This document shows, piece after piece, positions 45,661-50,580 of a stretch of 64,000 nt of DNA (position 1 is the first letter of the stretch; the number at the start of each line of letters is the position of its first letter). The position numbers and the translations under genes are program-made. The notes beneath the pieces were generated by a model. It was given only the letters and a program-made list of their open reading frames with translations, had not been told where the DNA came from and did no database searches. The DNA comes from Atribacter laminatus (lineage in GTDB: Bacteria > Atribacterota > Atribacteria > Atribacterales > Atribacteraceae), in contig NZ_CP065383.1 of assembly GCF_015775515.1 (NCBI RefSeq), positions 2,790,001 to 2,854,000 on the forward strand, written 5' to 3'.

Positions 45661-47424
45661 TCAATAAGCCACTAAACTTGGAGTTAAAAAAATAATCAAT
45701 TCGGTTTCTTCATGGGTTTTACTTCGTAAAGTAAAAAGCTCCCCAATGATAGGAATTTCACTCAGAAGAGGTATTTTAGTTATTCTCTCGATGTCGCTGC
45801 TCTTGATCAACCCCCCGATCACCAGAGTTTCCCCAGCTCGCAATCGGGCTGTGGTATCGGCAGATTTTTCACTGGGCTGTGGATCCTTAAAGGTAAGTCC
45901 TTCCAAAACATATTCTCGTTCTATAAAAGTACTTACTTTGGGAAATACATGCAAAATAATATATCCATCCTGTGTAACTTCGGGAGTTACACCCATTTTA
46001 ACTCCCACATCCAGCCATTTTATTGGAAAAGATTTATTTCCTTCGGAATCCATTACCACATCTCGATAGGGGACTTTTTCGCCAACGTTGATAACTGCAG
46101 TTTTTCCACTCAGAGTCAAAATACGAGGGCTCCCAACTAAGCGACCTAAATTCTTTTTTTCCAAAGCTTGGATCCGTATTGTTACCAAATCCTGCCGCTC
46201 CATAGTTCCGCCCAACGACATCTCGCCAAAAGAGATCTGCCCTTCCTGATCACCGACAAACCAACTGACTCCCAAGTCCTTGGTTTTGTTTCGATTGATT
46301 TCGACAATCTTGGCTTCTATCATAATCTGAGGAAGCTTACGGTCGATATTAGAGATGAGTTCACTAACTGCTTCCAATTCCTCTTGGGTTCCTTTCACAA
46401 CGATATAAGGGTTCCCGATCGGCACCTTAATCTTTTCTTCACTCATAGCAATATTTTCATTTAAAGTATAATTTAAACTGATTCTGTTCTCGTCAGGAAT
46501 GATAATTTTAACCAGCTCGACGATCCGACCCAGCTGATCTCCCCCATCATATAAATTGTTATTGAGTGGAAATATCTTCGTTTCCAGAGCCACATCTATA
46601 GTCTTTAGTACTTCTTCAGCCTTAGCAAGTTCATCTTCTCTCCCCCTTATTAAAAGACTGCGGGTAGTCGGGTCTATTGAAATTCGGTTCGGTTCGGGAA
46701 TATACATTGATAGAACCGAAGCAGCAGCATTGGGATCAGTATATTTTAAGGTAAATCTTCGTGACGTTAATAAATCAAAATTTTCCTCAAGGGTCTCTTT
46801 CTTGCCAATTATAATATTATTTCCTAATTTTACTTGTTCCAAACCTCTCATTTTCAGGATATATCCTAAAGCCTGGTCAAAAGAAAGTCCTTCAAATGCC
46901 AACGATATTTTTCCTTCAACCGTATCGTCCACAACCATGTTGACTCCGGCTGATTTTGCCAAAGCCATTAAAACATCTCGAACATCGGTATCACGGAAAT
47001 CAAAAGAAAACAAATTCTCTTGTGGCTGGGAAGTAGAAAAAGGTCCCTTTAAAAGGATGGTCAGCAGCCTCCCATTTGACTCGTCAAGAACTTCGTACTG
47101 AACTGTTTGGGATAGTTCACACCAAATTCGAATACCCGATTCAGAACTTCGAATAATGATATTTCGTAATGGACCCATGTTCATTAGTCGTTCGGAAAAG
47201 GATAAAGAACTGGCTGCTCCTTCAATATCCAAACCGATACGATAAGGATCAGGTGACACTTCTTCCCAGGAGACCTGGTTATCAAATTTAAAAGTTAATT
47301 TGATTTCAAGATTATCAACCCGATAGAAAAAATCCTTCAACTCAAGGGCGTGCGAACAGGAAAAGAAGAATAATATAAATAGAAGGATGCCAATCAAGTA
47401 ATGGGAAAATTTTAAAATTTTAAT
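45661..47424 (-). CDS. pilQ: Type IV pilus secretin PilQ, probable ATT start
   Basis: The outer-membrane secretin through which the pilus exits. Domains in order: signal peptide (about residues 1-27), AMIN domain (28-115), STN/N0 (about 135-215), N1-type repeats, and the secretin beta domain from about 380, with V-G-S-P-R-I-L-T, V-G-E-K-V-P-Y and the terminal L-R-A-G-E-T-L-V-I-G-G-L-I-K and P-L-L-S-E-I-P-I-I-G-E-L-F. A TTG at 47397 starts M-I-G-I-L-L without a ribosome site or basic n-region. ATT 47424 is preferred: AAGGGAGGGA at 47431-47440 lies six to eight bases upstream, and the product begins with two lysines before the hydrophobic core. It then has 587 residues and overlaps pilP by 13 bases. 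Confidence 0.9.
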   Translation of the reverse strand: MKILKFSHYLIGILLFILFFFSCSHALELKDFFYRVDNLEIKLTFKFDNQVSWEEVSPDPYRIGLDIEGAASSLSFSERLMNMGPLRNIIIRSSESGIRIWCELSQTVQYEVLDESNGRLLTILLKGPFSTSQPQENLFSFDFRDTDVRDVLMALAKSAGVNMVVDDTVEGKISLAFEGLSFDQALGYILKMRGLEQVKLGNNIIIGKKETLEENFDLLTSRRFTLKYTDPNAAASVLSMYIPEPNRISIDPTTRSLLIRGREDELAKAEEVLKTIDVALETKIFPLNNNLYDGGDQLGRIVELVKIIIPDENRISLNYTLNENIAMSEEKIKVPIGNPYIVVKGTQEELEAVSELISNIDRKLPQIMIEAKIVEINRNKTKDLGVSWFVGDQEGQISFGEMSLGGTMERQDLVTIRIQALEKKNLGRLVGSPRILTLSGKTAVINVGEKVPYRDVVMDSEGNKSFPIKWLDVGVKMGVTPEVTQDGYIILHVFPKVSTFIEREYVLEGLTFKDPQPSEKSADTTARLRAGETLVIGGLIKSSDIERITKIPLLSEIPIIGELFTLRSKTHEETELIIFLTPSLVAY

Positions 47425-47996
47425 ACGATTTCCCTCCCTTTATAGGCCAATACGGCTTCTTCTTTAGATACTTTAACCAATTCGATACCGGATTGCAAGG
47501 GTTTTTGGGAGGTTAAAATTTCTATTTTTCCATCCACATTAAGAATAATTGCCTGTTTATTGTCAGAAAGAACAACTCCTTTCATGGCTATATCAGGCAG
47601 TGGCTCTTCTTTTTTTTCAGCAACAACATTTTTTGCTGGAGGGTTTTGAGCTTTATTTTCTTGAACTGCGACTATCTCGTCACCGCCCCCCATGGCTAAT
47701 GGAATGGTTGAATCATCTATATCACCCTGAGCTTCAGCTAAAACAAAACGAGGTTGAAAGATGTTTCTCATCCCTGAAATTGATTCATCTTTATAGGTAA
47801 CCAAAAATATTTCATTATTATCAATTTTCGGTGGTTCATACTGCAATCCATTAGCTTTGGGTCGGATAAAGGCTGGAATTGGTTGAATGTCAGTCCCAGG
47901 TGTAAAAGTCCGATCGTAGATATTCATACCTAAATACATACAAAAAACGAATATGGCTATAAACCCATACTGAAGATATTTTTCAATGGTTTTCAT
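47412..47996 (-). CDS. pilP: Type IV pilus PilP/GspC-like inner-membrane protein
   Basis: A 194-residue protein with one N-terminal membrane helix (about residues 10-27), a Pro/Ala/Glu-rich linker and a C-terminal beta domain (about residues 135-194) with I-A-M-K-G-V-V-L-S-D-N-K-Q-A-I-I-L. This resembles the HR domain of PilP and GspC that contacts the secretin. It is not lipidated, unlike Proteobacterial PilP, so it is closer to GspC in layout. The position between pilO and pilQ supports the role of linking the inner-membrane PilMNO complex to the PilQ secretin. Sequence similarity is weak, so the name is partly by synteny. Confidence 0.75.
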   Translation of the reverse strand: MKTIEKYLQYGFIAIFVFCMYLGMNIYDRTFTPGTDIQPIPAFIRPKANGLQYEPPKIDNNEIFLVTYKDESISGMRNIFQPRFVLAEAQGDIDDSTIPLAMGGGDEIVAVQENKAQNPPAKNVVAEKKEEPLPDIAMKGVVLSDNKQAIILNVDGKIEILTSQKPLQSGIELVKVSKEEAVLAYKGREIVLKF

Positions 47997-48535
47997 TGGT
48001 TCATTCCTTCTTTGGCAGCTAAGTAGGTGGAAAGGTTCATTTGAACTAAGAAATTTCCCTCGGCTTTATCCTTCTTAAAGTCGAAGTTTTTGACTTGAAT
48101 AAGCCTTGGAGATTGACGTAGATAGTTCATAAAATAAAGAATGCTATAATAAGAGCTTTTTAAGGCTGTACTAAATGGAACCTCGGTATATCCATCATTA
48201 GAGACTAAGGTTTGAGGCACTAAGGACTGGATTTCGGCCTCGGAAAGAAAGGCTGCATCTTCAACTGTTATCAATAGATTTGGTATCTCTTTTTCATCGG
48301 GCAGTCGATCTTCAAGGACGATAGCCGCCGATTTTAAGCTTTCTAATTGATATTGTAATTGTTCTAAGTTGCTAACTTTTTTTCGTAAAACGGTTATTTG
48401 ATTTTGAAGGGTGCTTTTCTGGTCACCAAGAGTATCGATAAATTGGTATTGAGATGTCATAACCAAATAAAAAAATAAAATTATCACCCCGCACCAAGCA
48501 ATAAAGATTAGCGGCCAGTATTTTTCAAGATTCAT
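47993..48535 (-). CDS. pilO: Type IV pilus alignment protein PilO
   Basis: A bitopic inner-membrane protein of 180 residues: a short cytosolic N-terminus, a membrane helix at about residues 9-27, a coiled coil (about residues 35-70, with L-R-K-K-V-S-N-L-E-Q-L) and a ferredoxin-like periplasmic domain in which S-S-Y-Y-S-I-L-Y-F-M-N-Y-L near residue 127 is typical of PilO. PilO forms heterodimers with PilN and joins PilM to PilP/PilQ. It overlaps pilP by four bases and pilN by eleven, inside the conserved pilMNOPQ order. Confidence 0.85.
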   Translation of the reverse strand: MNLEKYWPLIFIAWCGVIILFFYLVMTSQYQFIDTLGDQKSTLQNQITVLRKKVSNLEQLQYQLESLKSAAIVLEDRLPDEKEIPNLLITVEDAAFLSEAEIQSLVPQTLVSNDGYTEVPFSTALKSSYYSILYFMNYLRQSPRLIQVKNFDFKKDKAEGNFLVQMNLSTYLAAKEGMNQ

Positions 48536-49082
48536 GTTTTTTCAGCTCCAAAATTAAATTGAAATCATACAAACTGTCCTTCAAGGAAAGGGATTGAAAT
48601 TCAGCATTTAGGTATAAATCCTGATATCGACTTAAACTCTCAATAAATTGAGCAATACTGAATATACTTTGAGAAGTTCCCGCGCAGGTTATTTGAGTTC
48701 CGGTAAAATTGGCCGAATTTAGAAAAACATCATCAGGCATACTATTCCCAATAGAATTAACTATCTTCAACCAGTCCGGTTCGCTCCCAATTAAAGATCT
48801 GACAACGTCGATCCTATTTTGAATAATATCAATCTGTTTTTGGGTTTCCTGTAATCTGGTTTCTTGTTCTTTAAGATAGTTTATTTCTGCAGTCATCGAT
48901 TCAATTTGAGTAGTCAAGATTTGTAATCGATTCCCATTTATTGTATAAGCATAAAGAAAATAGAGAGTCATTCCCAAGGTTAAGGTAAAAAACAAAATCC
49001 TTATCCAGTTCGGTGTCTTTTTAACGATATATTTTTTTGGAATAAGATTAATCTTTATCCGATAAGAAGATTTCAATTCCAT
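48525..49082 (-). CDS. pilN: Type IV pilus assembly protein PilN
   Basis: A 185-residue bitopic protein. The N-terminal cytosolic tail has I-N-L-I-P-K-K-Y near residue 11, the PilN signature (I-N-L-I/L-P) that binds PilM. A membrane helix follows at about residues 28-45, then a coiled coil and a periplasmic ferredoxin-like domain with I-T-C-A-G-T-S-Q-S-I-F near residue 129. It pairs with PilO. It overlaps pilM by ten bases and pilO by eleven. Confidence 0.88.
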   Translation of the reverse strand: MELKSSYRIKINLIPKKYIVKKTPNWIRILFFTLTLGMTLYFLYAYTINGNRLQILTTQIESMTAEINYLKEQETRLQETQKQIDIIQNRIDVVRSLIGSEPDWLKIVNSIGNSMPDDVFLNSANFTGTQITCAGTSQSIFSIAQFIESLSRYQDLYLNAEFQSLSLKDSLYDFNLILELKKHES

Positions 49083-50059
49083 AATGAAGCTCCCATAGCT
49101 GAAAGATAAATTCCACTGGAAGCCACTTTTTTATGACCCGTATCAATTGGCTTGATATCCTGAAAAGTAACGTTCAAATTAACCGTCAACATGGTTTTTA
49201 ACGGAATAATATTAGAACCTCCTCCAGCCAGGAAACAATTATCCAAAACTATTTTTCCGTACTCACTCTGAAAGAAGGTTAGAGAGCGCCTTAATTCGGA
49301 AAGGAGCGGGTCAGAGGTGTCATTGAGAGCTTCTTCCAATTGATAAGGCAGATTGTTATCCTGAGTGCTCCGGTTTAAGATTTCCTGGATCTCGGCTGGC
49401 AGTAACTTAAATTTATCCCTTAAATAATCCCAAATCCTACGTATTCCCCAGCCAAAATGACGGGAATAAACCAGTTTCCCATTTTCAAAAAAAACCACAG
49501 TACTTTTACTAAAACCAACATCAATCAGGATAAACCATGCATCTTTGGTTAAATCGGATCGTAAAGTTAAAAACCCTTTTAAAAAGCTTATTATTTGAGG
49601 TTCAATGGCTTCAATCCGAATTCCAGCTTTACGAAAAACATCCAGATACTCAGTGACTATAATAGCCGGCGAAGCTGTATATAATAGGTCTAATTTGTCA
49701 TTCTTTTTCTCGATAATCTGCCAGCCGATCTGGATATTTTCTTCACCGGTCATAATCGAGCTGGCTTCCCATTTCAGAGCATTTTCTAATTCTTGATCTG
49801 ACATTTGAGGAAGAGATATATTTTGAACCACCATGCGTGGGTGGTAAAAAGATACTACCCCGTCGTGTGGAAGACGATTTTTGTCCCAAAATATTTTTAT
49901 ATTCTCAACCAAAGTATTTTTTCCTTTTATTTCGCCTTCGAAGAATACATCATTCGGCAGAACCAATTCGCCACTCCGAATAGTCTCGAATACTCCTTCT
50001 CTTTTTTTCTTAGTTTGAAAATACTTCAATGCATAAGAACCTAAATCAATTCCAAGCAT
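49073..50059 (-). CDS. pilM: Type IV pilus assembly protein PilM
   Basis: An actin-like cytosolic ATPase of the FtsA fold that binds PilN. The 328-residue protein begins M-L-G-I-D-L-G-S-Y-A-L-K, the phosphate 1 motif, and has the second phosphate region L-I-D-V-G-F-S-K-S-T-V near residue 189 and the adenosine motif L-A-G-G-G-S-N-I near 283. ATG 50059 is chosen: it forms TAATG with the stop of the preceding gene and is preceded by GAGGGA. A longer frame upstream would run through that gene. It starts the pilMNOPQ set. Confidence 0.93.
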   Translation of the reverse strand: MLGIDLGSYALKYFQTKKKREGVFETIRSGELVLPNDVFFEGEIKGKNTLVENIKIFWDKNRLPHDGVVSFYHPRMVVQNISLPQMSDQELENALKWEASSIMTGEENIQIGWQIIEKKNDKLDLLYTASPAIIVTEYLDVFRKAGIRIEAIEPQIISFLKGFLTLRSDLTKDAWFILIDVGFSKSTVVFFENGKLVYSRHFGWGIRRIWDYLRDKFKLLPAEIQEILNRSTQDNNLPYQLEEALNDTSDPLLSELRRSLTFFQSEYGKIVLDNCFLAGGGSNIIPLKTMLTVNLNVTFQDIKPIDTGHKKVASSGIYLSAMGASLWN

Positions 50060-50532
50060 TATTCCCTCACATAAATTTGATTTGATTGACTTCTTACTCC
50101 TGTAATGCAAACCTTCCTATTATAGACTTTATAGTTTGCAATTAAAATATTTAATGATCCTTTTTCGATATAAATTTTTTCATCGTCAAAATAATAGCTA
50201 TAGTTAGGTTGAAAACTTGACGTAATCCTTTCAGAAGGATCAACTGTTCCTTTTTTTTCTCGATACTTTTTTGCTTCCATTAAGACCCCTTCTACCCGGT
50301 AATCTTCTTGAATACTTTTTTGATAAGCACTGCAAATCTTCCCGTGGAGAAGAACTTCTTGAAACAGTTGCATCGAAAGCAAAAGAAAGAAACTCATTAA
50401 AATCAAAGAGTATATTTCAATAAAACCTCTTTCTTTTCTGGTATTAACATTGTGATCACCTAATATATCGGCAATATTTAAAAAATATTTATGGTATCTT
50501 TTTTTAAAATCTTTTTTTGTCCCTTTTATCAC
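50059..50532 (-). CDS. Putative minor pilin, PilX-like, without Glu5
   Basis: A 157-residue protein with a long basic leader, then E-R-G-F-I-E-I-Y-S-L and a hydrophobic helix, which looks like a type III signal (cleavage after Gly36). Glu is at mature position 3, not 5; position 5 is Tyr. Loss of Glu5 is known in GspK/PilX-type initiator pilins. The rest is a soluble, charged domain with two cysteines. It starts with GTG 50532 behind AAAAGG and lies between the PilW-like and pilM genes. The PilX designation is tentative and rests on position and the N-terminus. Confidence 0.6.
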   Translation of the reverse strand: MIKGTKKDFKKRYHKYFLNIADILGDHNVNTRKERGFIEIYSLILMSFFLLLSMQLFQEVLLHGKICSAYQKSIQEDYRVEGVLMEAKKYREKKGTVDPSERITSSFQPNYSYYFDDEKIYIEKGSLNILIANYKVYNRKVCITGVRSQSNQIYVRE

Positions 50533-50580
50533 CTTTAGACCTTTTCTATCATCTGGTATTTTAATTTTTCCCCTCTCCTC

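Follow-up and report, generated by a model that had tools for sequence, protein, structure and literature searches.

The secretin gene pilQ of Atribacter laminatus most probably starts at ATT, a very rare start codon; this assignment is given a probability of about 95% from the comparison of related genomes. The codon is located at 47422..47424 on the minus strand of the window, the whole 64,000-nucleotide stretch analysed here (contig NZ_CP065383.1, positions 2,790,001 to 2,854,000). It follows a strong Shine-Dalgarno sequence and is nested within the upstream pilP gene, in a frame relation that forbids NTG. It is considered probable, on the same comparative grounds, that these three features combined explain the start. 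An earlier sequence-only reading of this DNA had proposed the ATT start; the nesting in pilP is new beyond it, and the constraint imposed by the pilP frame also accounts for the absence of an NTG codon.

Standard gene callers use ATG, GTG and TTG as start codons. As a result, annotated PilQ proteins would tend to lack their signal peptide across this little-studied order. An isoleucine codon whose spelling never changes offers a test for AUU-type starts which needs sequences only, and an overlap frame that forbids NTG provides a structural reason for a gene to be held at AUU. A report of an ATT-started pilQ was not found in the openly accessible literature, closed journals being outside the scope of the search.

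The pilQ Locus and Its Candidate Start Codons

The genes are arranged in the order pilM-pilN-pilO-pilP-like-pilQ, where PilM, PilN, PilO and PilQ were identified by Pfam and pilP by its position only. The open reading frames of pilO, pilN and pilM are located upstream in the same operon (47993..50110, minus strand), with Pfam matches to PilO (3.3e-22), PilN (2.4e-08) and PilM_2 (2.6e-23). The pilP-like gene is an open reading frame at 47412..47996 (minus strand) between those for PilO and PilQ, and its C-terminal codons carry the start site of pilQ. Despite its pilP position, the encoded protein had no match to a Pfam family (E up to 0.001). On the minus strand, the open frame of pilQ runs from 47439 to 45661 and comprises 592 codons. 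From the ATT, the coding sequence (45661..47424, minus strand), as delimited by the open frame, Pfam and the aligned N-terminus, would code for a protein of 587 amino acids beginning with (fM)KILKFSHYLIGILLFILFFFSCSHA, which was identified as a secretin by Pfam (Secretin 1.2e-41, plus Secretin_N and STN).

In the pilP frame, the minus-strand mRNA reads ...TAT AAA GGG AGG GAA ATC GTA TTA AAA TTT TAA... across the site. The Shine-Dalgarno sequence GGGAGGGA of pilQ (47431..47438, minus strand) is formed by the Gly-Arg-Glu codons GGG AGG GAA of pilP, and was assigned from the invariance of GGG and AGG and from the 3' end of the 16S rRNA. Reading along the minus strand, it spans 47438-47431 and is followed by six bases and then by the ATT (47424-47422). 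The two genes overlap by 13 nt (47412..47424, minus strand), and the overlap ends with the pilP stop codon TAA (47414-47412). The letters that had been claimed for this start, namely the ATT, the Shine-Dalgarno sequence upstream of it and the pilP stop within the overlap, are thus all present.

The 16S 3' end of the genome, GGATCACCTCCTTTCT, is a standard anti-Shine-Dalgarno sequence, and its computed pairing before the ATT amounts to -13.0 kcal/mol, versus -3.9 kcal/mol for the best conventional start that the open pilQ frame offers in its first 80 codons. The earlier reading had seen no good conventional start for pilQ. It had also been stated that TTG 47397 is the only conventional start. 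In fact this codon (47395..47397, minus strand), which is rejected here as the start, is the first one, and the next in-frame ones follow at least 28 codons after the ATT. The string GGGAGGGA-N6-ATT occurs three times in all on the two strands of the 3.10-Mb single-contig genome, as does a reversed control pattern; by itself the string is unremarkable, and its position is what counts.

Conservation of the ATT Codon within the Order

The set for the order consisted of 25 genomes, of which 18, including that of A. laminatus, have a readable pilQ 5' end. These represent all four families and nine of the ten genera of the order, and the relatives are 55-89% identical; since the 18 genomes are related by descent, the counts given below are not independent. 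For the other seven (G001, G002, G003, G008, G009, G018 and G022; completeness 75-90%), no match to pilQ extended as far as the N-terminus. Codon counts comprise all 18 sequences, while the protein alignments took in 15 and 16 of them.

An in-frame (A/G/T)GG GAG GGA NNN NNN ATT was identified at the pilQ 5' end of all 18 readable genomes, and a second, partial pilQ copy in one of them (L081 in G021) also carries the motif and the ATT, as a 19th instance. The sequence GGGAGGGA with a 6-nt gap before the ATT is present in each of the 18, with pairing energies from -12.4 to -16.2 kcal/mol. After codon alignment of pilQ, the column of the proposed start contains ATT in 18 of 18 genomes. The comparison of N-termini in relatives, which had been suggested as a check, revealed ATG, GTG or TTG at this position in none of them. 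Among 560 columns covered by at least 17 sequences, codon invariance is confined to this ATT, two TGG and two ATG. When the 140 pilQ columns with an invariant but degenerate amino acid were considered (at least 16 sequences), the ATT was the only one with a single codon, and the other 139 vary. Eight other columns consist of isoleucine throughout, and each of them mixes two or three isoleucine codons. A codon which is never respelled under these circumstances does not behave like an ordinary internal isoleucine codon. An ATG turned into ATT by a sequencing or assembly error, always conceivable as a single-base difference in one genome, has a negligible probability, since the same base is found in 18 separate genome entries.

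The alternative start TTG 47397 is the first codon usable by a standard gene caller. Its position had been proposed for comparison with related genomes, and it turned out not to be conserved: TCA is found there in L003, which belongs to the same genus, and TTG is shared by only one of the 17 relatives (L002).

The N-Terminus of PilQ

Translation from the ATT would place two or three Lys or Arg residues ahead of a hydrophobic core in all 18 PilQ proteins, as judged by charge and hydropathy only; in L013 an additional acidic residue precedes the core. This agrees with the signal peptide predicted for the ATT start in A. laminatus, with positive charges followed by a hydrophobic core. In 15 of the 18 sequences, the first conventional start coincides with the beginning of the core or falls within or behind it. 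In L013 and L017 it lies before the core, where no Lys or Arg remains, and in L008 it lies before the core with one Arg left, so that all of these residues are lost in 17 of 18 cases. In the window, TTG 47397 is the codon with which the computed hydrophobic core begins, with no Lys or Arg left before it, and the N-terminus obtained from this codon indeed has no positive charges, as had been noted.

Complete PilQ copies of 566-598 amino acids were found in 16 of the readable genomes, that of L018 being cut short. For the PilQ of L100:3412-6084 (the same pilQ as L017), the open frame continues to 891 amino acids, and a match below the cutoff to an InlB-type B-repeat follows the secretin domain.

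The Start Site Is Nested inside pilP

In all 18 loci, the pilP stop codon is located downstream of the ATT. Its distance is +10 within the A. laminatus genus (three genomes) and +16 in the other 15. The co-directional overlap thus comprises 13 nt in this genus and 19 nt in the 15 genomes of other genera. Across the site, the pilP frame reads GGG AGG GAR nnn nnA TT(A/T). The pilQ start takes its first base from the wobble position of a pilP codon; in the window, the AUU is composed of the wobble A of the pilP codon GTA and of UU, the first two bases of TTA (Leu192). The pilP codon which supplies the UU is TTA in 11 and TTT in 7 of the 18 loci. The preceding nnA codon encodes threonine nine times, valine five times and serine, glutamine, arginine and alanine once each, and its third base is A in all 18. 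At the C-terminus of PilP, the motif YxGRE is invariant in the 16 aligned sequences. Of the 12 pilP columns in which a degenerate amino acid never varies, those of GGG and AGG alone keep a single codon.

These constraints bear on a second view of the locus, in which the real start is TTG 47397 or some other conventional codon further downstream, and the conservation ahead of it reflects nothing but pilP coding. The region does encode PilP. However, the need to encode the PilP residues cannot by itself account for the fixed third bases of GGG, AGG and the xxA codon, which the pilQ start does explain. Together with the poor conservation of the TTG and with the loss of positive charges, which the first conventional start avoids in only one of 18 sequences, this makes a downstream start very improbable. 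A PilP-PilQ fusion, made by a ribosomal frameshift within the overlap and stimulated by the internal Shine-Dalgarno sequence, is likewise very improbable. A sequence of this type is found inside pilP just ahead of the overlap, but a slippery heptamer common to the 18 overlap sequences was not seen on reading them, and a fusion would bury the signal peptide of PilQ within the chain.

In this frame, ATG, GTG or TTG as the pilQ start would force a TGN codon, coding for Cys, Trp or stop, into PilP. Where PilP has TTA, a direct change to ATG would create TGA and truncate the protein. Leu192 is part of the last predicted strand of PilP (residues 188-193, pLDDT about 70), in a structure model which is weak overall (mean pLDDT 60, pTM 0.25).

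pilQ Starts in Other Families of the Phylum

A search of 25 genomes that belong to the phylum's other families yielded 12 pilQ loci, two of which (L021 and L029) end before the start, leaving ten readable ones. In all ten, pilQ starts with an ATG behind a Shine-Dalgarno sequence. In nine, the ATG overlaps pilP in a different frame (AATGA, read in pilP as AAT GAx for Asn-Asp/Glu). The PilP proteins of the same nine loci have a similar ending, mostly G/D-Y-E-I/F-x-L, followed by an extension which carries the Shine-Dalgarno sequence (GGAGGTGAGGAG or a variant of it). In the tenth locus, L022, the pilQ ATG is located past the pilP stop. The position which supplies the UU within the order was compared by eye in the nine loci, and is occupied by leucine in seven (CTA, CTC, CTG, TTA), isoleucine in one and glutamine in one. 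Outside the order, the spelling at this position is therefore free, and the residue is not absolutely fixed. For the readable loci, the occurrence of ATG in the other frame versus AUU in the order indicates that AUU is associated with the one frame that leaves no room for an NTG.

Proposed Mechanism of Initiation at the AUU Codon

In the mechanism proposed here, the initiator tRNA would start PilQ translation at the AUU 47424, and the unusually strong, conserved Shine-Dalgarno sequence with its fixed spacing would allow the ribosome to use this weak codon. The AUU would serve both proteins, and the overlap frame, a relation visible in the sequence itself, would be the cause of its use. PilQ synthesis may consequently be low, driven by the Shine-Dalgarno sequence, possibly coupled to pilP and sensitive to IF3.

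When 70-nt segments from the 18 loci were folded in isolation, the Shine-Dalgarno sequence was mostly paired, with mean unpaired probabilities of its eight bases from 0.01 to 0.61, and the structures differ by eye. Such pairing would slow free initiation and could fit an opening of the site by ribosomes translating pilP, which is a guess. The overlaps of -13 or -19 nt in the 18 loci do not show the typical coupling spacing of -4 or -1, and coupling was reported, in the part of PMC12548453 available to us, to fall as the overlap grows beyond -4 nt. Since an overlap of 13-19 nt is beyond the best-known coupling spacings, a strong pilP-pilQ coupling is not to be assumed.

Comparison to Known Systems

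The comparisons in this section refer to the accessible portions of the papers cited. The classical AUU genes of E. coli are infC and pcnB (PMC1780047, PMC9410913), and these are the only two stated for this organism (PMC9410913). The start of infC is AUU in E. coli and AUA in S. aureus (PMC9410913, PMC13009471), so that infC resembles pilQ in having an AUH codon after a strong Shine-Dalgarno sequence. Unlike infC, pilQ does not encode a translation factor, autocontrol is not expected, and its start is nested in the upstream gene. For E. coli pcnB (Binns and Masters 2002, via PMC13009471, PMC1780047 and PMC9410913), a chromosomal AUU start like that of pilQ limits expression, in a different gene.

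In S. aureus, cvfC1 (AUU) and ccpN (AUA) combine a conserved non-canonical start with a conserved extended Shine-Dalgarno sequence, as does pilQ (PMC13009471). Their starts were mapped by ribosome profiling (PMC13009471), whereas that of pilQ is known from comparison alone. An overlap with another gene is not mentioned for them in the accessible portions. For lepA of Borrelia burgdorferi and Bacillus licheniformis, an AUU start was inferred because the full-length protein needs it (PMC1780047), as for pilQ, for which conservation at the codon level over an order goes beyond the lepA case. Overlapping NTGA gene pairs with termination-reinitiation (PMC10666635, PMC12548453) have the same frame relation as pilP and pilQ, in that the start codon's second base opens a codon of the upstream gene. 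In contrast to these 4-nt overlaps, that of pilP and pilQ is 13 or 19 nt long, pilP runs past the start, and TGA is unavailable.

Other AUH Starts in the Order and the Persistence of AUU

The infC gene was found in 24 of the 25 genomes of the order. In the 23 parsed loci (L110-L132; L133 unparsed), its start codon, assigned from the position of the Shine-Dalgarno sequence and located two codons past G(A/G)GGCG, reads ATC 17 times and ATA 6 times. A gene for an Rrf2 regulator (Pfam Rrf2 8.9e-36) has an ATT where homologues have their first Met. Among its ten closest loci (L178-L187), which derive from two families, include some near-identical pairs and were judged orthologous by score only, nine have ATT behind a G-rich Shine-Dalgarno sequence (L178, L180-L187) and one has ATC (L179). 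In L179, an in-frame ATG lies two codons further upstream and may be the start. At the same residue, 18 further homologues or paralogues (L188-L197 and L199-L206; L198 is outside the count, and L207 lacks the motif) have ATG or GTG, including the homologue of A. laminatus itself (L195), with ATG. A long upstream gene overlapping the Rrf2 AUU was not present in the two loci looked at, L071 and L077 (L178 = L071:1515, L181 = L077:1515), so that an overlap of this kind is not needed for AUU starts in the order. Ahead of the Rrf2 gene of L071, a sequence closely resembling a sigma-70 promoter (TTGACA, TATAAT) was noticed by eye.

The Rrf2 case keeps alive the view that the AUU of pilQ is retained for regulation, either because IF3 discriminates against it, the PilQ level then depending on available IF3 as for E. 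coli infC, or because the weak codon keeps a potentially harmful secretin at a low level, the overlap with pilP being incidental. The AUC and AUA starts of infC in the same order point in this direction, as do the conserved AUU and AUA starts with an extended Shine-Dalgarno sequence in S. aureus, which are reported, in the part of PMC13009471 accessible to us, to have given about 10% of the AUG level in poor medium. However, the overlap frame by itself accounts for the missing NTG, and the same gene has ATG in the readable loci of other families, where the frame is different; the latter favours the frame constraint. Regulation with an incidental overlap is therefore seen as a possibility with a less than even chance. 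The persistence of AUU thus has two accounts which do not exclude each other, a constraint from the frame and a selection favouring initiation that is weak or regulated. The frame argument leaves unexplained that the start has always stayed ahead of the pilP stop, unlike that of L022.

Elevated IF3 inhibits initiation at non-canonical codons, according to the available part of PMC2268962. An extension, which is speculative and rather unlikely, is that the order has a small set of AUH starts responsive to IF3, comprising infC (AUC or AUA), pilQ (AUU), in some families Rrf2 (AUU) and perhaps further genes, and tying the output of the pilus secretin to the state of translation initiation. The pilP codons might then have been shaped to keep the site, by an Arg which gives the Shine-Dalgarno sequence in place of the Tyr of other families, and by fixed wobble bases.

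When start codons were ranked by Shine-Dalgarno energy alone in 464 kb, ATT, ATC, ATA or CTG scored best for 99 of 340 open reading frames. Most of the non-NTG best-energy starts looked at appear to be internal, so that the evidence lies in the comparison of genomes and not in the energy alone. The gene upstream of pilM (50059-50580) was given an ATT start by energy and was dropped as unsupported, though not disproved, there being no shared ATT among the parsed loci; its relatives show little conservation, and the parsed loci were a fraction of the 17.

An Amidohydro_2 protein (L152:7306-8355, minus strand; L173-L176) has an apparent ATT start after AAAGGAGGAG in four of four copies from the genus of A. 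laminatus, and a conserved conventional start near this ATT was not seen in these four genomes. The copies are 94-100% identical, and the evidence is weaker here. For a Cas6 gene (L149:17985-18719; Pfam Cas_Cas6_C 2.3e-35), an apparent CTG start in the arrangement AAGGAGGGAATATTCA-CTG was observed in a single genome.
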